64,000 bases of DNA from Lutibacter profundi (GTDB lineage Bacteria > Bacteroidota > Bacteroidia > Flavobacteriales > Flavobacteriaceae): assembly GCF_001543325.1 (NCBI RefSeq), contig NZ_CP013355.1, positions 806,001 through 870,000 of the forward strand, given 5' to 3'. Shown here piece after piece: positions 35,528 to 47,446 of the stretch (positions within the stretch are counted from its first letter, which is position 1; the number at the start of each line of letters is the position of its first letter). A program made the position numbers and the translations under genes. The notes under the pieces are model-generated. The model was not told where the DNA came from, did no database searches, and saw nothing but the letters and a program-made list of their open reading frames with translations.

Positions 35528-36769
35528 ATGATTTCTTATCAGTTCAAAAATACATATTTCTTATTGGTTTCTCTATTTTTTTTTAGTTTGATTTCTTGCA
35601 ATCCATCTAAAAATTCAAAATTCAAAATTACAACCTTACCAAAAAGTGAAACTTCTTCAACTTTACAAATAAGTACCGGAGCCGACCAAACTAAATTGTA
35701 TTTAAAATTATTAAAAAATAAAACGATTGCTGTAACTACTAATCAAACATCTGTAATTCATAAAAATAATGGTAACTACACACATTTAGTTGATAGCTTA
35801 TTAAGTTTAAACATTCATGTTAAAACCGTATTTTCTCCTGAACACGGTTTTAGAGGTAAAGCAGATGCGGGTGAAAAAGTAACTGATGGGATTGATGCCA
35901 AAACAGGATTACCAATTATTTCGTTATATGGGAAAAACAGAAAACCTTCAAAAGAACAATTAAATGGTATTGATGTGGTAGTGTTTGATATTCAAGATGT
36001 TGGCGTTCGTTTTTACACCTATATTTCTACGCTTCACTATGTAATGGAAGCTTGTGCAGAATTAAATATCCCTGTAATTATTTTTGATAGACCAAACCCA
36101 AATGGTTATTATATTGACGGGCCAACTTTAGAAACTGAATACAAAAGTTTTGTTGGTATGCACCCAGTACCTATTGTTTATGGAATGACTATTGGAGAAT
36201 ATGCACAAATGATTAATGGTGAAAAATGGATGGAAAATGGTATACAATGCAATTTAACAGTGGTAGCTTTAAAAAATTATACACACGCAAGTAACTATAG
36301 CCTTCCTATAAAACCTTCTCCTAATTTACCTAATGATAAATCTATTAACTTATATCCAAGTCTTTGCCTTTTTGAAGGAACCAATGTAAGTGTTGGAAGA
36401 GGAACTGAAAAGCAATTTCAAATTTTTGGTTCTCCTTTTATGAAAAATAAAGATTTTACGTATTGTTTTACACCTCAACCCAATTTTGGAGCAAAACATC
36501 CTAAACATGAAAATGTTGAGTGCTGTGGTTTAGATTTAAGTACAACTAAACCTCTAGATAAAATTAATATCTCTTACTTAGTTGAAGCCTATACTTCAAC
36601 ACTTGATAAAAGTACGTTTTTTAATACATTTTTTGTAAAATTAGCCGGTACAAATAAATTACAACAACAAGTAGAAAGTGGTGTTTCAGCTAAAGAAATT
36701 CACCAATCATGGCAACCTAAAATTGAAGTATTTAAAAAAGTGCGAGAAAAGTATTTGTTGTATGAGTAA
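35528..36769 (+). CDS. DUF1343 / NamZ-like exo-beta-N-acetylmuramidase, lipoprotein
   Basis: The 413-residue product has a lipoprotein signal (LVSLFFFSLISCNPSK; lipobox Cys near 25) and the DUF1343 fold, with KTVFSPEHGFRGKADAGE, VVFDIQDVGVRFYTY, FDRPNPNGYYIDGP and FEGTNVSVGRGTEKQFQ. Bacillus NamZ of this family removes MurNAc from peptidoglycan fragments, and the T. forsythia homologue confirms the activity in Bacteroidota. Lipidation places it in the periplasm or outer membrane, suited to cell-wall recycling. Confidence 0.92.
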   Translation: MISYQFKNTYFLLVSLFFFSLISCNPSKNSKFKITTLPKSETSSTLQISTGADQTKLYLKLLKNKTIAVTTNQTSVIHKNNGNYTHLVDSLLSLNIHVKTVFSPEHGFRGKADAGEKVTDGIDAKTGLPIISLYGKNRKPSKEQLNGIDVVVFDIQDVGVRFYTYISTLHYVMEACAELNIPVIIFDRPNPNGYYIDGPTLETEYKSFVGMHPVPIVYGMTIGEYAQMINGEKWMENGIQCNLTVVALKNYTHASNYSLPIKPSPNLPNDKSINLYPSLCLFEGTNVSVGRGTEKQFQIFGSPFMKNKDFTYCFTPQPNFGAKHPKHENVECCGLDLSTTKPLDKINISYLVEAYTSTLDKSTFFNTFFVKLAGTNKLQQQVESGVSAKEIHQSWQPKIEVFKKVREKYLLYE

Positions 36770-36927
36770 ATAATTAATATGTTAGTGTATATTACTTAGA
36801 ACAGTTATTAGAAGCTTTTAGTTTTTAAAGCAAATTCGTTATTAATAAAAAATTACCCATTTAAATTTTAGCATTCGTATTCATAATATTTTAATTAAAT
36901 TTATAGTATTCATAAAATTTAATTGCT

Positions 36928-37812
36928 ATGTTAAAACGAACCCTTTTTTTTGGTAATAAAGCAACATTAACTACCAAATTAGAACAGCTTGTTATTAAAA
37001 CCAAAGACCGTGAGCTAACTGTTCCTATTGAAGATATTGGATTTATTGTTCTAGAACATCATGAAATTTACATTTCAATACCAACATTAACAAAATTATC
37101 GGCTAACAATGTAGCCGTAATTTTTTGTGATGCGAAGCATATGCCCTCAAGTATGCTTTTAAATTTAGACAACCATTACATTCAGCAAGAATTATTTAAA
37201 AACCAAATAAACGCATCACTTCCATTAAAAAAACAACTTTGGCAACAAACCATAAAGTCCAAAATTAAAAATCAAGCCTATTTGCTAGAACAATTAAACA
37301 AACCATCTAAAGTTTTACACTATTTTGAATCTAAAGTATTGAGTGGAGATACTGAAAATATGGAAGGTGTTGCTGCAGCTCATTATTGGAAGCACTTGTT
37401 TAATTTTAAATTTAAAAGAGAACGTTACGGTGCATATCCAAACTTATTTTTAAATTATGGATACATTATTTTAAGAGCTGCAGTAGCAAGAGCCTTAGCT
37501 GGTAGCGGATTATTAAGTACTCTTGGGATACATCATCATAATAAATACAATGCATTTTGCCTAGCCGATGATATTATGGAACCTTTTAGACCTTTAGTTG
37601 ATGCAAAAGTTATTGCTATTCTTAAAAATTATAATGAAGAAGAATTAACAACACCTATAAAAGCTGAACTTTTAAATGTATTGACTGAAACTGTATATTT
37701 TGAAGATACTAAAAGTCCGTTAATGGTTGCTTTATCTAAAACCTGTACTTCACTTCAACAATGCTATACAGGAAAAATAAAAAAAATTAACTATCCTAGT
37801 TTATGGAATTAA
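36928..37812 (+). CDS. cas1: CRISPR integrase Cas1 (type II-C)
   Basis: The 294-residue metal-dependent nuclease/integrase begins MLKRTLFFGNKATLTTK and shows the catalytic set: Glu in TENMEGVAAAHYWKHLF, His in LGIHHHNKYNAF and Asp/Glu in CLADDIMEPFRPLVD. It integrates new spacers as a Cas1-Cas2 complex. It is followed by cas2 with a 10-bp overlap. No csn2 or cas4 is nearby, which makes this subtype II-C. In most II-C loci cas1 follows cas9 directly; here cas9 is on the other side of the array, in opposite orientation. Confidence 0.97.
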   Translation: MLKRTLFFGNKATLTTKLEQLVIKTKDRELTVPIEDIGFIVLEHHEIYISIPTLTKLSANNVAVIFCDAKHMPSSMLLNLDNHYIQQELFKNQINASLPLKKQLWQQTIKSKIKNQAYLLEQLNKPSKVLHYFESKVLSGDTENMEGVAAAHYWKHLFNFKFKRERYGAYPNLFLNYGYIILRAAVARALAGSGLLSTLGIHHHNKYNAFCLADDIMEPFRPLVDAKVIAILKNYNEEELTTPIKAELLNVLTETVYFEDTKSPLMVALSKTCTSLQQCYTGKIKKINYPSLWN

Positions 37813-38132
37813 ACGCTTACAGAATTATGTGGTTATTTGTATTTTTTGACTTACCTACTGAAACAAAAAAAGACAGAAGAAATGCACAACAATTTAGAAA
37901 AAATTTACTAAAAGATGGTTTTACTATGATGCAATATTCTGTTTATAATAGGCATTGTGCCAGTAGTGAAAGTGCTGATGTACACGAGAAAAGAATTCAC
38001 ATGTTGCTTCCACCTCTAGGCAAAGTTAGTATTCTTAGGATAACCGATAAACAATTTGGTAATATTTTAAATTTTTGGGGGAAGTTTGAAGTTCCAAAAG
38101 AACCACAACCGCAGCAATTAGAATTATTTTAA
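37803..38132 (+). CDS. cas2: CRISPR protein Cas2
   Basis: The 109-residue Cas2 has the ferredoxin-like strand IMWLFVFFDLPTETKKDRR with the conserved aspartate, followed by FRKNLLKDGFTMMQYSVYNR and a C-terminal strand ending QQLELF. It bridges the Cas1 dimers in spacer integration. The start overlaps the last 10 bases of cas1, so the two are translationally coupled. The gene ends just before a bidirectional terminator. Confidence 0.96.
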   Translation: MELNAYRIMWLFVFFDLPTETKKDRRNAQQFRKNLLKDGFTMMQYSVYNRHCASSESADVHEKRIHMLLPPLGKVSILRITDKQFGNILNFWGKFEVPKEPQPQQLELF

Positions 38133-38138
38133 AACCAA

Positions 38139-38186
38139 AAAATGCTCCAATATTGCCTTAAAAGTACAATAAAGGAGCATTTTAAA
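38139..38186. terminator. Bidirectional terminator between cas2 and the CRISPR array
   Basis: AAAATGCTCC (38139-38148) pairs with GGAGCATTTT (38174-38183), with further inner pairing of TATTG and CAATA. The T run is four long on the plus strand and six on the minus strand, so it can stop both cas1-cas2 transcription and leftward transcription of the array. Confidence 0.75.
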
Positions 38187-38237
38187 TTACGATATTTTCA
38201 ATTAATCTTTTGAGTACCAGAAGCTAACAGCGCAACT

Positions 38238-39521
38238 AATATCGTTTTCTCTAATCTTTAATCAAACCACAACATATAATTTAAATAATTCTTTTGTAAT
38301 ATAATATCGTTTTCTCTAATCTTTAATCAAACCACAACTCATATAGTCCTTCGCATAAAGTTTCTGCTAATATCGTTTTCTCTAATCTTTAATCAAACCA
38401 CAACATTAAGCCAATCGCATATTGTTTTTGGTTAATATCGTTTTCTCTAATCTTTAATCAAACCACAACATTGTTCTAATAATGACTTAGTTAGTTTAAA
38501 ATATCGTTTTCTCTAATCTTTAATCAAACCACAACAAGATTACCCTAGTTATGTAGGTGCTAGAAAATATCGTTTTCTCTAATCTTTAATCAAACCACAA
38601 CTAATTGCTGAATATCTTTTTTACTCGCTAAATATCGTTTTCTCTAATCTTTAATCAAACCACAACACTGCTGTGGTGTAGCAGCAATAACAGGATAATA
38701 TCGTTTTCTCTAATCTTTAATCAAACCACAACACGTAAATAATCTATTTCTTTTTTTGCAAAAATATCGTTTTCTCTAATCTTTAATCAAACCACAACAA
38801 CTGTAATATTTACGGTTATGTTACCTAAAATATCGTTTTCTCTAATCTTTAATCAAACCACAACGAACTCTTTAAACTCTTTAAGAAATTTTTTAATATC
38901 GTTTTCTCTAATCTTTAATCAAACCACAACAGTTTGAAAACATTACTACAACATCCGATAATATCGTTTTCTCTAATCTTTAATCAAACCACAACAAATT
39001 GATATAACAACAGGAAAAACAAAATAATATCGTTTTCTCTAATCTTTAATCAAACCACAACTTGATAAACGAGGGTAGTCTTTAACCATATAATATCGTT
39101 TTCTCTAATCTTTAATCAAACCACAACTTATGCTTGAGTCTTTACGAGCCACCAAGGAATATCGTTTTCTCTAATCTTTAATCAAACCACAACACGATGG
39201 AATAGGGGCTATTCATTTACAAGAATATCGTTTTCTCTAATCTTTAATCAAACCACAACATTTACCTCTATATATCCTTCACTTTTTGAATATCGTTTTC
39301 TCTAATCTTTAATCAAACCACAACAATCTCATCTTTCCATTTTTCTAAAGTTTAATATCGTTTTCTCTAATCTTTAATCAAACCACAACATTAGCATCCT
39401 TAATTACTACACAACCTGAAATATCGTTTTCTCTAATCTTTAATCAAACCACAACATAGGCTGCCCATATTGCCGTTGCGAAATCAATATCGTTTTCTCT
39501 AATCTTTAATCAAACCACAAC
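38238..39521 (-). CRISPR. Type II-C CRISPR array, 20 repeats and 19 spacers
   Basis: Twenty identical 36-bp repeats start at 38238, 38303, 38369, 38434, 38500, 38566, 38631, 38697, 38763, 38829, 38895, 38960, 39026, 39092, 39158, 39224, 39289, 39354, 39420 and 39486. On the plus strand each repeat begins AATATCG and ends ACCACAAC. Spacers are 29-30 nt and all different; none visibly matches this window. The tracrRNA anti-repeat at 45130-45153 pairs with the minus-strand repeat (GTTGTGG at its 5' end), so crRNAs read from right to left, and the strand is given as minus on that basis. The absence of any mutated repeat suggests the array is still active or recent. Confidence 0.98.
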
Positions 39522-39578
39522 AAAACCTCGCTTTGCTCGGTTTTGTTATAGATTAATTATTTAAAAGAGTTTTAATTT
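39522..39578. other. Array flank, candidate leader with small hairpin
   Basis: Between the last repeat and the first tandem-repeat unit are 57 bp, AT-rich apart from AAAACC (39522) and GGTTTT (39539-39544), which can pair around an 11-base loop. Given minus-strand crRNA transcription, this side would be the leader. No full TAnnTTTG box was found. Confidence 0.35.
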
Positions 39579-41137
39579 GTCATTCCGACAAAGGAGGAAT
39601 CCCATTAAAACTTAGCATTATGTGATACCTCGCCTACTCGGTATGACAAAACAAACCCAAAAGCTCTATATTTTTACTTACATATTAAACCATAAAAATT
39701 AATTTAAACAGATTACAATACCTCAACTACTTGGCTAACAAAATAAACTGTTAAAATAACCAACCTTTTATATTGTCATTCCGACAAAGGAGGAATCGCA
39801 TTAAAACTTAGCATTATGTGATACCTCGCCTACTCGGTATGACAGAAGAAGCTATAAACTCCTTTTTTTACTCCACATATCAAACATGAAATTAATTTAA
39901 ATAAATTACAATACCTCAACTATTTGGCTAACAAAATAAACTGTTAAAATAACCAACCTTTTATATTGTCATTCCGACAAAGGAGAAATCTCATTAAAAC
40001 ATTTAATTTATATCAATGAACTTAAAACTTGTCATTCCGACAAAGGAGGAATCCCATTAAAACTTAGCATTTTGTGATACCTCGCCTACTCGGTATGACA
40101 AAACAAACCCAAAAGCTCTTTACTTTTACTCACATATTAAACCATAAAAATTAATTTAAACAGAATACAATACCTCAACTATTTGACTAACAAAATAAAC
40201 TGTTAAAATAACCAACCTTTTATATTGTCATTCCGACAAAGGAGGAATCCCATTAAAACTTAGTATTATGTGATACCTCGCCTACTCGGTATGACAGAAG
40301 AAGCTATAAACTCCTTTTTTTACTCCACATATCAAACATGAAATTAATTTAAATAAATTACAATACCTCAACTATTTGGCTAACAAAATAAACTGTTAAA
40401 ATAACCAACCTTTTATATTGTCATTCCGACAAAGGAGAAATCTCATTAAAACATTTAATTTATATCAATGAACTTAAAACTTGTCATTCCGACAAAGGAG
40501 GAATCCCATTAAAACTTAGCATTATGTGATACCTCGCCTACTCGGTATGACAGAAGAAGCTATAAACTCCTTTTTTTACTCCACATATCGAACATAAAAT
40601 TAATATAAATTGAATACAATACCTCAACTACTTGGCTAACAAAATAAACTATTGAAATAACCAACCTTTTATATTGTCATTCCGACAAAGGAGGAATCCC
40701 ATTAAAACTTAGCATTATGTAATACCTCGCCTACTCGGTATGACAAAACAAACCCAAAAGTTCTTTACTTTTACTTTCAAATAAACCATAAAAATTAATA
40801 TAAATTGAATACAATACCTCAACTACTTGGCTAACAAAATAAACTATTGAAATAACCAACCTTTTATATTGTCATTCCAACAAAGGAGAAATCGCATTAA
40901 AACTTAGCATTATGTGATACCTTGCCTACTCGGTATGACAAAACAAACCCAAAAGCTATTTACTTTTACTCACATATTAAACCTTAAAAATTAATTTAAA
41001 TAGATTACAATACCTCAACTACTTGGCTAACAAAATAAACTATTGAAATAACCAACCTTTTATATTGTCATTCCAACAAAGGAGGAATCCCATTAAAACT
41101 TAGCATTATGTGATACCTCGCCTACTCGGTATCACAG
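39578..41137. repeat. Nested tandem array of REP-doublet (REPIN-like) units
   Basis: Ten copies of GTCATTCC(G/A)ACAAAGGA start at 39579, 39775, 39968, 40031, 40227, 40420, 40483, 40676, 40871 and 41067, at steps of 193-196 bp, with two shortened 63-bp units at 39968 and 40420. The blocks 39579-40030 and 40031-40482 are near-identical 452-bp duplicates. Each full unit holds a roughly 70-bp element: hairpin 1 (ATTCC...GGAAT), a 20-base spacer and hairpin 2 (ATACC...GGTAT), ending TATGACA, with outer arms TGTCAT/ATGACA. A linker of about 125 bp comes in two subtypes (ACAAAACAAACCCAAAAG or ACAGAAGAAGCTATAAAC). There is no ORF of note and no spacer-like variation, so this is not a second CRISPR array. 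Confidence 0.9.
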
Positions 41138-41205
41138 ACAAAACATTTGAATAACAACCCAATATTTCAAAGAACTTATTACTTCTAATTTTACAATTTC
41201 AATTC

Positions 41206-41523
41206 TTATTCAAAAAGATAATTTAATGACTTAAACGTTGGATTAAACGCTCTAATCAAATTTAACTTTTTTTCTCTACGCCATCCTTTCAATTCCTTTT
41301 CACGTGCAATGGCTTGCTGCACCCAACCAAATTTCTGATAATATACCAAATATTTTAAATTGTATTTGGCAGCAAACGTTTTTTTAGTACTTTCTGTATT
41401 TTTAATATGCTCTTGTAAGCGTCTATTCAAATTATTGGTTACACCTATATAAAAGGTAGTACGGTATGTGTTTGTAATAATGTACACATAAAAAGAATAA
41501 ATGCCTTCTGTAAATTCTATCAT
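41206..41523 (-). CDS. Small GIY-YIG nuclease bracketed by REP hairpins
   Basis: The 105-residue protein is a stand-alone GIY-YIG domain of the UPF0213/YhbQ type: FYVYIITNTYRTTFYIGVTN (YVY...YIG core), catalytic Arg in NNLNRRLQEH, Glu in IAREKELKGWRREKK and the NP of RAFNPTF. Homologues nick or cut DNA, but most single-domain members are uncharacterised. On its strand it is preceded by the half-REP at 41573-41550 (TGTCATTCCGAC...) and followed by the inverted end of the last tandem REPIN (...TTGGAATGACA at 41066). It lies between the CRISPR array and cas9 but is not a known Cas protein. Confidence 0.9.
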   Translation of the reverse strand: MIEFTEGIYSFYVYIITNTYRTTFYIGVTNNLNRRLQEHIKNTESTKKTFAAKYNLKYLVYYQKFGWVQQAIAREKELKGWRREKKLNLIRAFNPTFKSLNYLFE

Positions 41524-41549
41524 TTGTATTTAATTATAATAGTATGCGA

Positions 41550-41573
41550 TTCCTCCTTTGTCGGAATGACACG
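41550..41573 (-). repeat. Half REP element upstream of the GIY-YIG gene
   Basis: The minus strand reads TGTCATTCCGAC followed by AAAGGAGGAATC, identical to hairpin 1 of the tandem units. It lies between cas9's stop and the GIY-YIG start and is inverted relative to the tandem copies, giving the gene terminal inverted repeats. Its hairpin could also help end the cas9 transcript. Confidence 0.8.
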
Positions 41574-41585
41574 TTTTATTGAAAA

Positions 41586-44500
41586 TTATACTTTTTCTAT
41601 TTTACCAGAAACTGAAACTTTAATTTTTATTGGGTTAAATGTTTTCCAGCCTGTTTTACCCTCTCCAAAACCTTTAATGTACTGATATGCTTTTCCTAAT
41701 TCACCATTTAAATTACTCTCAATATGCTTCCTAAAATAATAATCTCCAGAAGTAAATTTCTGAACTCTATATAAATGCTCTTTCAACAAAGTAAACTTGG
41801 GATGTTCCCAATTAATTTCATCGTCTTTTAAACCCAACAAAAACATATCATTTATTTGTAAAGTAGTAACTATTTCTTTTCCATTTTCGGGTAATTGAAA
41901 AACAGCTTGCTTCTGTTTTTTACGCTCAACTGCTGTCCAAAATGTTACTACTTTCTCTTTCAAGTTATCATCAAAATCTTTATAAATTAACACATGATGA
42001 TTACTGCGAGGATTTACATGTTGGTTCACTGTACTTTTTAACTGTTCAGCTCCTCCAATATTTTCTCTTAGCCTTATCTTTTTAATTGGCACAGGATTTC
42101 CATTTTTATTTGGTAGAAAAATTTGAGGCTGTTTATTTCCATTTTCATCTGTATTATAAAATGTACCCTCTGGTATTTTTCCTTTTACAAAACCACCTAA
42201 TTTATTAACTTGTTTTAAAATAAGTAATCGAATAGTTTCATCTACTACCTTATTAATATGTTTATGCGTAGACAAACTTTCAATTGGTTTACGCACATGA
42301 TATGCTTCTATACCATCTGGTGCAGTTCTTTTTCCAAACACAGTTTCTTTATGTAGCTGCCCTCTTGCAGCTACTCCTATATTTTTATAGACAACACCAT
42401 TTTTCTTTGTTTTGTGTGTTCTTACTGTTAAAATAGTGTTCAATTTTTTATGAGATACTAATATCTGTTCTACAGATTTTTCTGCATCTTGCCTAAAAAA
42501 TTGCCAAGGCATTGGAAAATCTTTAAATTCATAATCTTTTTGATACCTATTTCTTTTACTTAATTCTTGTAAATGACTTCTTGTAGAACACGCCATAACC
42601 AAAGCGTCTATAGCATGATGCCGATGGTCATCTCTTGTTTTAGTATCATCATCTTTATTTAAAATAGTGTTTAAACCCCACTTATGCCGCAATGTTGCGG
42701 TCATTTGTCCTGGTGCTACTTGCACATTATTACAGATTTTAGATAAATAATTTTTTGCTTCTTTACTTATATAACGAGTATCGTTTAATTGACGACTTAT
42801 AAAATCTTCGTCATGTTTTTTCTTTACAAACTGTTTAAACTTTTGATAAGCATTTGGATAATTAGGTTTATTTTTAAAACAACTTAAGGCTTGTATTTTT
42901 ATTTCTTCCCATTTTTGTTCTCCTTGTTCACTATAAAACTCATAAGGAGTTTTATTTCCTTTAGCTCTATTTTCGTCAGCAAAACAAAGTGTTTTGTTCA
43001 TAAAGCTATCATTTAAAGATCTGCTCCAAGGGAAAATATGTTCTATTTGAACTTCTCCACTAAAAAGCTCATTCACTTCAATATTTTTACCAGTAAACGG
43101 ACATCTTTTATCACATTCTTCCCATAGTTTGTATTTTAAAATGGTGATATGGTTTATTCGCTGCCCTAGATTTTCTAATTCTATTTTAATTCTATCATTT
43201 TCTTTTTCTAATCTTAGTTGCTCTCTTCTTGTATCATAACGTTTAGACTTTGAAGCCTTCAAATCTCGTGCTAGTTCTACCTTTATTTCATCAAATTTTC
43301 CGTACGTATCAATAATTTCATTTACTAATTTTCTAATTTCAAATAGAGCGGTAATTACAACAGGGTTTTTAATACTTTGTATTTCTTTATCTGCTTCCGA
43401 ATTTATAGGCAATTTTTTTAATAATTCAGTAGTCTCAATAGCGCTACTATGGTGATATAATTTTAATAATTGTTTATCTGAAACATCAAACTCATATTTA
43501 AGCATTTGTTTTAGCGGCTCAATATAACCCCCTTTAAAATTAGACCGTACAACACTTGGAACATTATCTAAAATAAATTGTTCATTCTCTATCCATTTAT
43601 CAGCTAGTGCATTTTTAACACCTCCAAGTCCTACAGCAACATCATACATAAAACCTAGCTTTAGAAAAGGTAAAATATTATGAATTGCTTTTCTACTCAA
43701 ATTAGAATAGCCTTCTTTTAAATTAAATTTTGAAATTTTAACAGCTTTCTCTTCATTAAATCCCCAATACTTTATTGCGTATTGTTTTAACTTATCTCTA
43801 TCGTCAAAAAATGATAACACATGCCAAATATCTTCCTGTTCTTTATCTGAAAAATCAAACCATTTTTTACCGAAGAATTTCTTGTTAGATAAATTACTAA
43901 TGGTATAAGAGCCAACTATTTTATCGTCATTTTTATAATTAAACTGATAATAACCATCCGATTTATTAATAACTTTTCTAATTTCTTTAAAACTAACTTT
44001 TTCTTTAGATAGTAATAATTCAACCATTTTCCCTCTATCTTCACTAGTAACTTTTTCATTACAATCTACTGTATTTACCCATTGATAAATTCTAAATAAC
44101 TCAAATGGAATGGTGTTAATTTGACATTTTGTTTTTTTAGGTTCAAAAGAACAATAGCCTACTAAATGCTTTTGTGAACGTAATGGCCTTTGATGAAATA
44201 AAATACCATCTTCCTTATAACCATCTTTTTTACGCCCTCCCAAAACAGTTTTTAATTCATTTGAAAGTTCTGAATAAAATTGTTTTTGATATTCCCAAAT
44301 AGTTTCAAACTCGTAAATATACATTTGTCTTGTTGTATATCTATTTCTAATGCGTTCTTTATGTCCAGAATAAGGTTTATTTTGTTTTGGGTATATAGTA
44401 TGTAAATAAGAGCCAAGAGTTTTAGTGTTTTTAATGCTCTCTAGTGTTTCTGAAATACCAATTTTACCTGTTTTGGTATCTCCTTTAAAAATCACACTTT

Positions 44501-44972
44501 TTTCAATATTATCTACTCCTGCACTCCTACTGTTACTTTGAAAGCCTCTACGTTGAATAAAATGATAGAATATTCTACCTAATTCTTCTAAAGAAATTTT
44601 TTCTTGGATTGCTTTTGAACGCAACTCATAGGGATTTAATTTAAACCATTCCTGTAATTGTTTATTTTTAAAAATTTGCGCTTCATTCCACTCTTTAACT
44701 AAAGTGTAGTTAATTGGGCAAAGCCCTTTTTTAGCAAGTTCTCGTAACAAGTAGCGTTTGCGTAGACGTCTTCTAAAAAACTGTCGTCTCGTTCCTCTAG
44801 CATCAGTTCTACTAGCGTTTTTTGAAGTTTCCCTACCTTCACCTTCACCAATATTTACAACACCTTCTGGGAAAATTCTACTTCCCATTCCAAGTATTTT
44901 TTCCTTTTTTTCATCAACCACAGCCCATCCAATAGAGTTGGTACCTAAATCTAATCCTAAAATTTTGGTCAT
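41586..44972 (-). CDS. cas9: CRISPR effector nuclease Cas9 (type II-C, compact)
   Basis: This 1128-residue Cas9 is intact: RuvC-I ILGLDLGTNSIGWAVV with Asp8, arginine-rich bridge helix (about 58-80, TRRQFFRRRLRKRYLLREL), REC lobe (about 85-555), RuvC-II IKVELARDLK with Glu566, HNH domain with CDKRCPFTG and QIEHIFPWSRS (His645) and NRAKGN (about 668-673), RuvC-III DDHRHHAIDALVMA (His786, Asp789) and a PAM-interacting C-terminus. It is much shorter than the roughly 1400-1500-residue Cas9s I recall from many flavobacteria, with the saving mainly in REC. It faces the array from the far side of the REPIN block and is divergent from its tracrRNA. Confidence 0.97.
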   Translation of the reverse strand: MTKILGLDLGTNSIGWAVVDEKKEKILGMGSRIFPEGVVNIGEGEGRETSKNASRTDARGTRRQFFRRRLRKRYLLRELAKKGLCPINYTLVKEWNEAQIFKNKQLQEWFKLNPYELRSKAIQEKISLEELGRIFYHFIQRRGFQSNSRSAGVDNIEKSVIFKGDTKTGKIGISETLESIKNTKTLGSYLHTIYPKQNKPYSGHKERIRNRYTTRQMYIYEFETIWEYQKQFYSELSNELKTVLGGRKKDGYKEDGILFHQRPLRSQKHLVGYCSFEPKKTKCQINTIPFELFRIYQWVNTVDCNEKVTSEDRGKMVELLLSKEKVSFKEIRKVINKSDGYYQFNYKNDDKIVGSYTISNLSNKKFFGKKWFDFSDKEQEDIWHVLSFFDDRDKLKQYAIKYWGFNEEKAVKISKFNLKEGYSNLSRKAIHNILPFLKLGFMYDVAVGLGGVKNALADKWIENEQFILDNVPSVVRSNFKGGYIEPLKQMLKYEFDVSDKQLLKLYHHSSAIETTELLKKLPINSEADKEIQSIKNPVVITALFEIRKLVNEIIDTYGKFDEIKVELARDLKASKSKRYDTRREQLRLEKENDRIKIELENLGQRINHITILKYKLWEECDKRCPFTGKNIEVNELFSGEVQIEHIFPWSRSLNDSFMNKTLCFADENRAKGNKTPYEFYSEQGEQKWEEIKIQALSCFKNKPNYPNAYQKFKQFVKKKHDEDFISRQLNDTRYISKEAKNYLSKICNNVQVAPGQMTATLRHKWGLNTILNKDDDTKTRDDHRHHAIDALVMACSTRSHLQELSKRNRYQKDYEFKDFPMPWQFFRQDAEKSVEQILVSHKKLNTILTVRTHKTKKNGVVYKNIGVAARGQLHKETVFGKRTAPDGIEAYHVRKPIESLSTHKHINKVVDETIRLLILKQVNKLGGFVKGKIPEGTFYNTDENGNKQPQIFLPNKNGNPVPIKKIRLRENIGGAEQLKSTVNQHVNPRSNHHVLIYKDFDDNLKEKVVTFWTAVERKKQKQAVFQLPENGKEIVTTLQINDMFLLGLKDDEINWEHPKFTLLKEHLYRVQKFTSGDYYFRKHIESNLNGELGKAYQYIKGFGEGKTGWKTFNPIKIKVSVSGKIEKV

Positions 44973-45104
44973 ATTATTTTTGTGTTAGCAATTTTTTAAA
45001 CAGAACTCTAAATTTAAACATTTTTAGAATAAGAAACCTTTTTATTAAATATTTAGAATGAATAAAAATTAAGGGCAAAAAATAAATGCTATCAAATTAT
45101 TTGC

Positions 45105-45112
45105 TATATTTG
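45105..45112 (+). promoter_or_regulatory. -7 box of the tracrRNA promoter
   Basis: TATATTTG is a perfect TAnnTTTG box. Transcription would begin about 6-8 bases later, near 45119, just before the anti-repeat. No clear -33 element was seen. Confidence 0.6.
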
Positions 45113-45118
45113 AGTTGT

Positions 45119-45220
45119 GAAAAAATTATTCTAATCTTTAATCTTATCACAATAAGGCTATATGCCGTAGATGTTAAAATCTTGAGTCCTGCGTACTTTC
45201 CGTAGGACTTACTTTTTATA
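45119..45220 (+). ncRNA. tracrRNA of the II-C system
   Basis: The anti-repeat TCTAATCTTTAATC (from 45131) followed by a 4-base mismatch and CACAA (to about 45153) pairs with the 5' half of the minus-strand CRISPR repeat (TTGTG, internal loop, GATTAAAGATTAGA). It is followed by ATAAGGCTATATGCC, a nexus-like hairpin (GGC/GCC), and by a terminator hairpin AGTCCTGCG/CGTAGGACT (45185-45209) with a T-rich tail. Size about 100 nt. It is transcribed away from cas9, from the -7 box at 45105. This arrangement is standard for II-C tracrRNAs; ends are predicted, not mapped. Confidence 0.9.
45185..45218 (+). terminator. tracrRNA terminator
   Basis: A 9-bp stem AGTCCTGCG/CGTAGGACT (one G-U pair) with loop TACTTTC is followed by TACTTTTTA. 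Confidence 0.8.
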
Positions 45221-45268
45221 TACTGTTTTAACAGGCAAAAATTACTATTATAAAATACTTTAATAACA

Positions 45269-45296
45269 TAAAAATTTACACCGGTGTATTTTTAAT
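45269..45296. terminator. Terminator-like palindrome after the YkgJ-type gene
   Basis: The palindrome ACACCGGTGT is flanked by AAAAATTT and ATTTTTAATTTT and could end the minus-strand YkgJ-type gene and back up the tracrRNA terminator. It is followed by two direct copies of TTCTAAGGTGTTT (near 45298 and 45320). Confidence 0.55.
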
Positions 45297-45348
45297 TTTC
45301 TAAGGTGTTTTTTAACAACTTCTAAGGTGTTTATTTAGAAGAGTTAAA

Positions 45349-45846
45349 CTACAACGGCAACTTCAGTTTTAATGCTTCAATAATATTGTATGTTGCTGGA
45401 CAAATTTCAATGTTTTTTAACGTTAAATCTGTAATTTGAATAAACTTTTTACGATTTGTATGTGGATATTCTCTACAAGCCTTTGGCCTAACATCATAAA
45501 TAGAACAAGTATTATCACTCAAATCTAAAAAAGTACAAGGTGCCGTTTTTAACACATAAAAATCATCACCATCTCTCTCTAAATACTGTGAAATAAAATT
45601 CACAACCTTCATTTTAAAATGCTTTGATATACGCTGAATATCCTTTTCTGTAAAAATTGGACTCGAAGTTTTACAACAGTTTCCACATGCTAAACAGTCT
45701 GTTTTATTAAACTCTTTATCATGTAAATCTTGCATTATCAAATCTAAACGCTTTGGTGTTCGTTTTTTTAATTTAGCAAAATACTTTTTGTTTTCTATGT
45801 GTTTTTCTTTTGCTAATTCAGGTAGTTCTTTTAAAAAATTATCCAT
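45349..45846 (-). CDS. YkgJ-family cysteine-cluster protein
   Basis: From ATG 45846 the product has 165 residues. It carries the YkgJ/UPF0153 cysteine pattern CLACGNCCK, then CTFLDLSDNTCSIYDVRPKA-C, and a late cysteine in NIEICPATYN, a likely metal (Zn or Fe-S) site. Function is unknown. The 8-codon longer reading would place its start inside the -7 box at 45851-45858, which is why I prefer 45846; even so, the box is so close that the mRNA may be leaderless. Confidence 0.88.
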   Translation of the reverse strand: MDNFLKELPELAKEKHIENKKYFAKLKKRTPKRLDLIMQDLHDKEFNKTDCLACGNCCKTSSPIFTEKDIQRISKHFKMKVVNFISQYLERDGDDFYVLKTAPCTFLDLSDNTCSIYDVRPKACREYPHTNRKKFIQITDLTLKNIEICPATYNIIEALKLKLPL

Positions 45847-45850
45847 AGCG

Positions 45851-45858
45851 CAAATATA
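45851..45858 (-). promoter_or_regulatory. -7 box immediately before the YkgJ-type gene
   Basis: The minus strand reads TATATTTG (TAnnTTTG). Its last base lies only 4 bp before the ATG, so the expected transcription start falls on or beside the start codon. Confidence 0.5.
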
Positions 45859-45922
45859 AGTAAGTTCCAAATGTAAATACTATTATAATTATTATTAAAT
45901 TAGCTACTTAAAAAACTTTTTT

Positions 45923-47446
45923 ATGAAGTTATTAAAATTATCACTTCTGTTACTTTTTTTAGTAACTCCTGTTTTTTCACAAACAACTGAACAACTTAAA
46001 CATTTAGATTCTTATTTTCAAAAAACATTAAAAGAATGGCATATTCCTGGAATGGCAATAGCTATTGTAAATGCAGATTCTATAGTATTTAGTAAAGGAT
46101 ATGGCTATGCCAACATTGAAAAAAAACTAAAAGTTGATGGTAACACTTTGTTTGCTGTTGCATCTAACACAAAAGCTTTTACAGCTTCTTCATTGGCTAA
46201 GTTGGTTGAAGATGGGAAATTAAAATGGACAGATAAGGTTATAGATTATATTCCTTATTTTAAAATGTACAATGCTTATGTTACCAATCATTTTACAATT
46301 GAAGACTTATTATCTCACCACAGTGGTTTAGCAACATTTAGTGGTGATTTATTATGGTATGGAACTTCAAAAACACCACAAGAAATTATTACAGCTCAAC
46401 AATATTTAAAACCAATCTCCGAATTTAGAACTGCATATGGCTATTCTAACATTGCTTTTTTAACAGCTGGAGAAATTTTAGCTAAACTTTCAGGTAAATC
46501 GTGGCAAAATTATGTAACTGAAAATTTTATTAATCCCTTAGGAATGAGTAGAACTTTAACGTCAACTTCTCAACTAAAACACACCAATAATATTGCAACT
46601 CCCTATTATTATAAAAACGGGAAAAACATTGAATTAAAATGGGTGAATTGGGATAATATTGCTCCTGCAGGAGCAATTATTTCTTCGGTAAATGATTTTT
46701 CAAAATGGATACAACTCAATATTAATAAAGGAACAATAGCTTCTAAAAAATACTTTTCAAAAAAGAGTTTAAATCGTTTAACTACTCCGCATACTAATTT
46801 TAATGTAAATCGTAATGATGAAAAAATTCATTTTAAATCCTACGGGCTAGGTTGGGGATTGCAAGATTATGAAGGCTATAAAATTGTATCACACGGTGGT
46901 GGTTACGATGGTATGATTTCTAAATCGTTTTTTATTCCTGAGAAAAAAATAGGAGTTGTAATTTTAACAAATTCATTAAACTGGGCTACAAGTGCTTTAA
47001 CCAATAAAATATTAGACGTTCTTTTAACGGGTAAAACCAACAAAAAAGATTGGTCTGCATTATACTTATCTTATAAAACTAGGAGAGATAGCATTACCAA
47101 AAATAAGCAACTTAAAGATAGTGCATTGAGAGGGAAATTAAATTCAAAACATTTAGCTTTTGAAAATTATACAGGGACTTACAAAGATAAAATGTACGGA
47201 ACGGTAACCATTAGCTTAAAAAATAAGCAATTGTATTTTACCATGGATAAAACATCTATTTTTTATGGTAATTTAAACCATTGGAATGGTAATATTTTTA
47301 CCTTTAATTTTAATAAAAATTTATCATCCCTACCAGAAGGAAAACTGTGGTTTGATATTGATAAAAATGGAAAAGTAGCCATACTGCATATTGATGTTCC
47401 TAATCCTGATTTTGATTTTACAGAATTTGAATTTATAAAACAGTAA
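45923..47446 (+). CDS. Serine hydrolase, class C beta-lactamase family
   Basis: The 507-residue exported protein has a signal peptide (MKLLKLSLLLLFLVTPVFSQ), the serine-transpeptidase fold with SxxK in VASNTKAFTASSLAK (Ser near 85), YxN in YGYSNIAFLTAGE and the HGGG in VSHGGGYDGMIS, then a C-terminal beta domain of the DUF3471 kind (about 410-507). Such enzymes act as D-aminopeptidases, esterases or penicillin-binding-like hydrolases; resistance is not implied. Confidence 0.92.
   Translation: MKLLKLSLLLLFLVTPVFSQTTEQLKHLDSYFQKTLKEWHIPGMAIAIVNADSIVFSKGYGYANIEKKLKVDGNTLFAVASNTKAFTASSLAKLVEDGKLKWTDKVIDYIPYFKMYNAYVTNHFTIEDLLSHHSGLATFSGDLLWYGTSKTPQEIITAQQYLKPISEFRTAYGYSNIAFLTAGEILAKLSGKSWQNYVTENFINPLGMSRTLTSTSQLKHTNNIATPYYYKNGKNIELKWVNWDNIAPAGAIISSVNDFSKWIQLNINKGTIASKKYFSKKSLNRLTTPHTNFNVNRNDEKIHFKSYGLGWGLQDYEGYKIVSHGGGYDGMISKSFFIPEKKIGVVILTNSLNWATSALTNKILDVLLTGKTNKKDWSALYLSYKTRRDSITKNKQLKDSALRGKLNSKHLAFENYTGTYKDKMYGTVTISLKNKQLYFTMDKTSIFYGNLNHWNGNIFTFNFNKNLSSLPEGKLWFDIDKNGKVAILHIDVPNPDFDFTEFEFIKQ

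Follow-up and report, generated by a model that had tools for sequence, protein, structure and literature searches.

A small GIY-YIG nuclease as a candidate partner of CGTC/TGTC-tagged REP palindromes in Lutibacter profundi and other bacteria

Results and discussion

A stand-alone GIY-YIG nuclease and the tagged palindromes that frame its gene in Lutibacter profundi probably belong to a system that resembles RAYT/REPIN but uses an unrelated nuclease, and in which CGTC/TGTC-tagged REPs have a dedicated GIY-YIG partner. Because such repeats frame GIY-YIG genes in many bacteria, and because the type of repeat follows the type of nuclease, the GIY-YIG protein makes a strong candidate for the partner that a widespread class of bacterial repeats has so far been missing. 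The flanking of the genes, the position of cassette edges at tags, the filled and empty sites and the class specificity are read from the sequences themselves. A sequence-only reading of the locus had taken the hairpins for possible gene-less relatives of a GIY-YIG cassette; its interpretation is supported in part, by the association, the gene-less doublet, the filled and empty sites and the class match, but not in treating the repeats as undescribed and the GIY-YIG protein as the sole nuclease. The candidate partner makes the origin of CGTC-tagged REPs testable and offers a natural code in which a short helix is linked to a palindrome class. If the proposal is true, a second, unrelated enzymatic solution to REP spread would exist beside RAYT, and the large, little-studied family UPF0213/COG2827 would gain a role. 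We rate the partner nuclease unrelated to RAYT as new, whereas the combination of a REP with a partner nuclease is known already.

The repeat array and the GIY-YIG gene at the CRISPR-Cas locus

The window, i.e., the whole stretch of DNA that was analyzed, comprises 64,000 nt (positions 806001–870000 of the 2.97-Mb single-contig genome). Its hairpin-repeat array and GIY-YIG gene occupy the space between a CRISPR array and cas9 (Table 1). Since this is a CRISPR-Cas locus, the GIY-YIG protein is not the only nuclease nearby, as had been assumed; Cas9, Cas1 and Cas2 adjoin, too. An adjacent Y1 (HUH) tyrosine transposase is absent, the ORFs of at least 60 aa between 37000 and 44000 being those of cas1, cas2, the GIY-YIG protein and cas9 only.

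Table 1. Features of the locus (window coordinates) and further GIY-YIG copies of the L. profundi genome (genome coordinates)
Feature	Position	Strand	Basis and remarks
cas1	36928-37812	+	ORF and Pfam search
cas2	37803-38132	+	ORF and Pfam search
CRISPR array	38237-39523	+	Repeat core in 20 copies; context, outside the proposed system
Tandem array of eight outward-tagged REP heterodoublets, REPIN-like	39578-41136	.	71 bp each, linkers of about 125 bp
Two solo units within the tandem array	39967 and 40419		
Last doublet, downstream end of the proposed cassette	41066-41136	.	+REP from 41066; tag of the -REP (41112-41136) altered to TGTG
Proposed cassette: REP, GIY-YIG gene, inverted REP	41066-41571	-	506 bp; inferred
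Stand-alone GIY-YIG nuclease gene, UPF0213/COG2827-like	41206-41523	-	ORF, 105 aa; PF01541, 55.3 bits
Tagged half-REP TGTCATTCCGACAAAGGAGGAATCGCAT just upstream of the gene	41544-41571	-	Tag away from gene
cas9	41586-44972	-	ORF, 1128 aa; RuvC_III and HNH_4 domains; context
Own-genome GIY-YIG gene	around 500141		CTGAA-loop-TTCAG palindromes
Own-genome GIY-YIG copy with stop	around 1214647		CTGAA-loop-TTCAG palindromes
Own-genome GIY-YIG gene	around 1271511		GGTG-tagged palindromes
Own-genome tandem GIY-YIG pair	1590040 and 1590422		Untagged palindrome after each copy; beside tRNA genes

The usual doublet consists of a +REP TGTCATTCCGACAAAGGAGGAATC, a 22-base spacer and a -REP TGTCATACCGAGTAGGCGAGGTATC, with the TGTC tags pointing outward. 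With up to two mismatches, TGTCATTCCGAC occurs 19 times in the window (1.54 expected), and 18 of these occurrences lie inside 39578–41571. The REP stem pairs ATTCC with GGAAT, followed by G-A and A-G mismatches and a C-G pair, and the tails read CCC, CGC or CTC. We use this tandem G-A mismatch to define class A palindromes, and CTGAA/TTCAG to define class B; the labels A, B and C were coined in the present analysis. Folded as single-stranded DNA, three doublets of the window gave z values of -1.8, -2.3 and -3.5, and a single REP alone folds weakly (z -0.55).

Outward-tagged TGTCATTCC..GGAATC palindromes flank the GIY-YIG gene at 41066 and 41571. The bracketing of the gene by inverted repeat copies that had been noticed before is confirmed, with the half-REP on the minus strand placed at 41544–41571 instead of 41550–41573; it is complementary to the unit at 39774 in 28 of 28 positions, and to the last unit at 41066 in 93%. 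The bracketed stretch, with inverted REPs at both ends, measures 506 bp (roughly 508 bp in the earlier reading); its delimitation as a cassette is proposed on the model of other cassettes that have their edges at tags (see below).

A homologous locus in another Lutibacter genome, L008, shows 73% DNA identity over 3.2 kb and 83% identity of the GIY-YIG protein; it has the GIY-YIG gene at the same place, with few repeat units only. The placement between CRISPR array and cas9 in both the window and L008 might suggest that the repeats or the gene are parts of the CRISPR-Cas system, such as RNA processing elements. However, repeat-associated GIY-YIG genes were found in many other genomic contexts, a search of the window for the 21-base CRISPR repeat core, allowing up to three mismatches, gave no match outside the array, and no Rfam family was detected in 36000–46500. 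On these grounds we rejected a CRISPR role, which is extremely improbable. At its end, the CRISPR array of both loci carries an untagged hairpin, AACAAAACC-core-GGTTTTGTT (window 39519–39547, L008 6706–6734). It overlaps the last CRISPR repeat and has a class-A-like core, which reads GAGCAAAGCGA in the window (minus strand) and GAGCGAAGCGA in L008.

Relation to known repeat systems

CGTC REPs have been described from five phyla including Bacteroidetes; they carry an unpaired CGTC tag, often TGTC and also CCTC, on a stem of 8–9 bp that begins with AT, have a loop of 4–5 nt and a usual, not obligatory, CCA tail, and occur predominantly as head-to-head dimers (Di Nocera et al. 2013, PMC3733652). 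According to the available text of that paper, no RAYT or IS200 gene is flanked by such elements, which apparently have no transposase dedicated to them, and the term GIY-YIG has zero occurrences in this text. As far as they are described there, they share with the window repeats the unpaired CGTC/TGTC tag, the imperfect palindrome starting with AT, the outward dimers and the intergenic location, whereas the window stems differ by the tandem G-A mismatch and a tail other than CCA; their classic stem form is seen in copies from the phylum of an alphaproteobacterial MAG. A further difference is the nuclease gene family tied to the repeats here. The repeats beside the gene are as real as had been claimed, but their resemblance to the published CGTC-tagged REPs speaks against an undescribed type. 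Among the best matches listed from the open-access literature, preprints excluded, a tie between GIY-YIG genes and REPs was not found.

RAYT/REPIN systems resemble the one proposed here in having a small nuclease gene between inverted REPs and gene-less doublets as the non-autonomous form, and RAYT nuclease clades likewise match palindrome classes. They differ in the enzyme, which is a tyrosine HUH protein in RAYT and a GIY-YIG nuclease here, and in the tag, which is GTAG in RAYT REPs and CGTC/TGTC here (TGTC in the window). As in MITEs and their parent insertion sequences, gene-less and gene-bearing forms have common ends, and terminal inverted repeats are present (inverted REPs of 93% in the window); in contrast to these elements, the ends are tagged palindromes, there is no known transposase, and one comparison revealed no duplication. 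GIY-YIG enzymes are not known to act as transposases, which counts against the proposal.

The GIY-YIG protein

The structure predicted for the window protein (pLDDT 91) is closest, among solved folds, to UPF0213 protein BH0048 (E 4e-4), followed by Slx1 (E 0.008–0.14). The protein contains all conserved GIY-YIG residues, namely Tyr, Tyr-x-Gly, Arg and Glu, whose columns are 99–100% conserved in 307 small GIY-YIG proteins without stops. Judged from the model, the fold as well as the active-site residues would be common to Slx1 and UPF0213/COG2827 nucleases, in contrast to which the proteins considered here are stand-alone domains of about 95–110 aa, often multi-copy and framed by repeats. For Caulobacter crescentus, the accessible part of one report lists three small COG2827 genes, one of them with an SOS box, and leaves their role open (PMC1839093).

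With the branched-DNA nuclease Slx1 as the nearest solved fold after UPF0213, and with the GIY-YIG enzyme ANKLE1 reported to cleave a cruciform junction, the protein might serve genome maintenance by resolving hairpins or cruciforms that the repeats form; it would be kept beside them and move nothing. This is improbable, given that multiple copies per genome, related cassettes at unrelated loci and filled as well as empty sites (see below) point to mobility.

Association of GIY-YIG genes with tagged palindromes

The named loci of our survey are the best 80 of 564 matches of a protein search, whose query alignment consisted of four own-genome proteins already known to be REP-framed; 29 loci of the genus were taken from the Pfam family. 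A profile search detected a small GIY-YIG protein in 170 of 173 loci; L043, L092 and L098 were dropped, and L003, L005 and L006 had been excluded beforehand. The palindrome finder required GTCA, so that clades with GGTG or other tags were scored as unflanked. Tagged palindromes no farther than 100 bp away occurred on both sides of 25 of the 80 named loci and of 12 of the 34 own-genome and genus loci, compared with 15 of 722 control ORFs, a set that includes neighbors sharing palindromes with the GIY-YIG gene and hence is biased against finding an association. An inverted repeat joining the 300-bp flanks with a score of at least 14 was present at 47 of 110 GIY-YIG genes, but only at 20 of 602 control ORFs of the same loci and in 21 of 550 mispaired flanks (the 110 are 116 loci minus UvrC, one locus without ORF and four short of flank). 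By either measure the genes are bounded by repeats far more often than the controls are, a kind of comparison that the sequence-only reading had proposed.

Around the 80 named loci, palindrome density falls from 9.16 per kb at 0–50 bp to 0.14 per kb at 3.2–6 kb. REPs and small genes could simply both gather in permissive intergenic DNA with no functional link; both are indeed intergenic, and the trpD-trpC hotspot described below takes several kinds of insert. However, within the intergenic DNA of the same loci, the density is 5.33 per kb near GIY-YIG genes and 0.63 per kb far from them, i.e., about 8-fold different. Moreover, DUF559 genes of repeat-rich genomes are unflanked, and the class specificity holds within genomes. 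Pure hitchhiking, rejected on account of the density gradient, the DUF559 comparison and the within-genome class specificity, is very improbable.

The DUF559 nuclease had been considered as an alternative partner. We rejected it, as none of 21 DUF559 genes was flanked on both sides, compared with 23 of 30 GIY-YIG genes (Fisher 1e-8; distances counted from the domain match for DUF559 and from the gene ends for GIY-YIG), and 1 of the 21 had a tagged palindrome on at least one side at a distance of up to 250 bp. These matches were found in 10 of 20 sampled genomes with at least 13 class A plus B copies.

Further samples consisted of best-scoring matches to a second profile, which was built from REP-flanked genes, and therefore lean to that clade. 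Among 30 such loci from 247 Bacteroidota genomes, in many of which part of the candidates was scored, and including the window's own gene, 29 are accompanied by a palindrome no more than 250 bp away on at least one side, 23 by palindromes on both, and 15 are flanked on both sides within 100 bp. The latter applies to 5 of 30 loci from the genomes of 11 non-Bacteroidota loci, a set that repeats 11 named loci, and to 8 of 29 loci from the phylum of the alphaproteobacterial MAG, where GIY-YIG profile matches occur in 110 of 299 genomes. Several palindromes of that phylum have the form CGTCATTCCCGCGAAGGCGGGAATCCA with a CCA tail; CCA is found at several of its loci, and many surveyed palindromes have CTC-like tails.

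Most palindromes listed across the surveyed loci have a CGTC or TGTC tag (the finder required GTCA). When the 307 small GIY-YIG genes were searched for GTCA-tagged palindromes up to 200 bp away, 130 had them on both sides, 70 on one side and 107 on neither. Orientation is mixed: the tags point outward at 14 of the 25 named loci flanked on both sides, and in 190 of 481 neighboring palindrome pairs (up to 120 bp apart, all fetched loci), which makes the outward arrangement the commonest type without a majority.

The L. profundi genome itself contains six places with small GIY-YIG genes including that of the window, UvrC apart. All six adjoin palindromes, the sequences of which differ; at three of the five other places, the framing palindromes belong to other sequence families (Table 1). 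Class A is represented by 81 copies in this genome and class B by 20, while the patterns read backward gave 0. The tandem GIY-YIG pair (L007 1432–1865 and the next copy, own genome 1590040–1590640) forms a 434-bp repeat, 97.9% identical, beside tRNA-like sequence, and each copy is followed by the untagged palindrome GGGTTCATTCCGATAGCTATCGGAACCC.

Cassette edges, filled sites and empty sites

For an analysis of cassette edges, we used 30 pairs of related cassettes (15 of them non-redundant) with homologous flanks of at least 15 bp on both sides and no homologous neighbor gene. Of the 30 homology edges of the 15 non-redundant pairs, 13 lay within 6 bp of an outward tag, compared with 448 of 6000 slid edges (7.5%; p 8e-8, the edges being treated as independent). 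In the pair L004/L169 (348 bp, 80%) as well as in a neighboring pair of L210 (349 bp, 91%), both homology edges fall exactly at tags. Other cassettes deviate from this pattern: those of 523 bp have TGTAGATGT/ACATCTACA ends and those of 606 bp have TAAC/GTTA ends outside the palindromes, and another clade has inward tags.

Both empty and filled sites, a comparison suggested by the sequence-only reading, exist between trpD and trpC of relatives. TrpC was found in 38 genomes of the genus, and the loci of 30 were obtained. At three of these, a GIY-YIG gene, in two cases with stops, lies between tagged palindromes; 15 have gaps of 0–13 bp, one has a solo palindrome, two have several and one has decayed palindromes, three have 40–67 bp with no tagged palindrome, and five contain an unrelated small gene (a motif flag at L200 and L205 was false on reading of the sequence). 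The TrpC proteins of the filled locus L178 and the empty locus L179 are each 89% identical to that of L. profundi. This one comparison of a filled with an empty site revealed no target duplication; CGT is shared at the left edge only. The two ends of the trpD-trpC GIY-YIG cassette, which are unequal, recur in a doublet of the L. profundi genome that has no gene. This supports the earlier view that hairpins of this kind may be gene-less relatives of a GIY-YIG cassette.

Locus L320 (genome G111) has two cassettes 6 kb apart that are 99.3% identical over 417 bp. All three differences are in the left palindrome, which suggests exchange or a target origin of that end.

Palindrome class follows nuclease clade

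For class trees and motif counts, 23 loci that repeat other loci, among them the window's own gene, were left out. When the class of each gene's nearest palindrome was mapped onto a tree of 196 GIY-YIG proteins flanked by REPs, 37 changes resulted; 200 shuffles never gave fewer than 86. Restricted to classes A and B (128 proteins), there are 3 changes versus a shuffled minimum of 29, and a tree built from these 128 proteins alone has 4. The 31 genes of 13 mixed genomes show 2 class changes, while 1000 shuffles within genomes gave a minimum of 5 and a mean of 10.4; the host genome therefore does not explain the class match. At the level of sequence comparison, palindrome class tracks nuclease clade, even within genomes.

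The residues that distinguish the classes adjoin the helix after the putative catalytic Glu. A KGWxRxKK-like motif occurs in 78 proteins of class A, 7 of other classes and none of class B, and a KNWxxxW-like motif in 41 of class B, 15 of other classes, 3 of class C and 1 of class A; neither motif is present in 27 proteins of other classes, 16 of C, 7 of A and 1 of B. As the motifs were written after the column differences were known, from the same data, these counts are a description and no independent test. In the window, a protein with the A motif accompanies A repeats.

Genomes in which genes and repeats do not match

Among the 247 Bacteroidota genomes, at least 10 class A copies were counted in 57 of the 146 with GIY-YIG and in 19 of the 101 without detected GIY-YIG; for class B, the respective numbers are 25 of 146 and 1 of 101. 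When 15 repeat-rich genomes were searched again with all candidates scored, 14 had no GIY-YIG match at E≤1e-4, among the matchless being a genome with 226 class A copies. Conversely, 15 genomes with at least three GIY-YIG matches have at most two copies of both class patterns. The rank correlation of GIY-YIG number with repeat copies is 0.33 for class A and 0.51 for class B, values reached in 8 and 0, respectively, of 2000 shuffles within families. An abundance of repeats in genomes without the gene, which according to the sequence-only reading would refute it, is seen in part, namely for class A in the 19 genomes mentioned. Considering also the 107 of 307 genes that have no GTCA-tagged palindrome within 200 bp, the link between GIY-YIG genes and repeats is strong, yet not one-to-one. 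Old repeats may outlive the nuclease, other tags and classes are in use, or other enzymes may also move class A.

Such repeat-rich genomes without GIY-YIG would also fit a selfish, homing-type GIY-YIG gene that inserts into pre-existing REP pairs as its landing sites, the REPs being spread by another enzyme. GIY-YIG nucleases are classic homing enzymes, the protein matches an intron-endonuclease profile, albeit below the cut-off of that profile, and the differences between the L320 cassettes look as if the left end came from the target. Nevertheless, class specificity within genomes, edges at the tags and the occurrence of the same two ends in a gene-less doublet make homing into REP pairs unlikely.

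Proposed mechanism

In the RAYT/REPIN-like system that we consider probable, the GIY-YIG protein would play for CGTC/TGTC REPs the part that RAYT plays for GTAG REPs. The spreading unit would be a pair of outward-tagged palindromes, autonomous when it includes the gene (about 350–510 bp) and a REPIN-like doublet when it does not. In single-stranded or supercoiled DNA, the palindromes may form extruded hairpins or cruciforms, the stem of which the Slx1-like GIY-YIG domain may recognize via the helix after the catalytic Glu. A hydrolytic nick near the tag might then let replication or repair transfer or copy the unit to an intergenic position. In the window, the proposed cassette lies between cas9 and the CRISPR array, as its homologue does in L008, and the doublets would have been amplified in tandem afterwards.

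A stricter version, in which the GIY-YIG protein of about 100 residues is the sole encoded mobilizer of a superfamily of bacterial repeats, is quite possible and put forward tentatively: a new class of autonomous element, 350–510 bp in size, would need no transposase and would move by structure-specific cleavage of its hairpin ends together with host repair. The palindrome class recognized would be switched by a small number of residues in one helix (K versus W).

Other termini and small genes

Two groups of cassettes at unrelated loci have other termini, namely inverted TGTAGATGT of about 26 bp (L351, L372 and L373) and TAAC..GTTA (L354 and L356); the latter ends may resemble integron attC cores. 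The small gene between trpD and trpC of L185, L188, L191, L196 and L205 is surrounded by inverted repeats of the AATTACGAATTACGAATT / AATTCGTAATTCGTAATT type. We take its product to be a four-helix-bundle protein, S23/IVP-like, and the gene may be another example of a small gene linked with a palindromic repeat.
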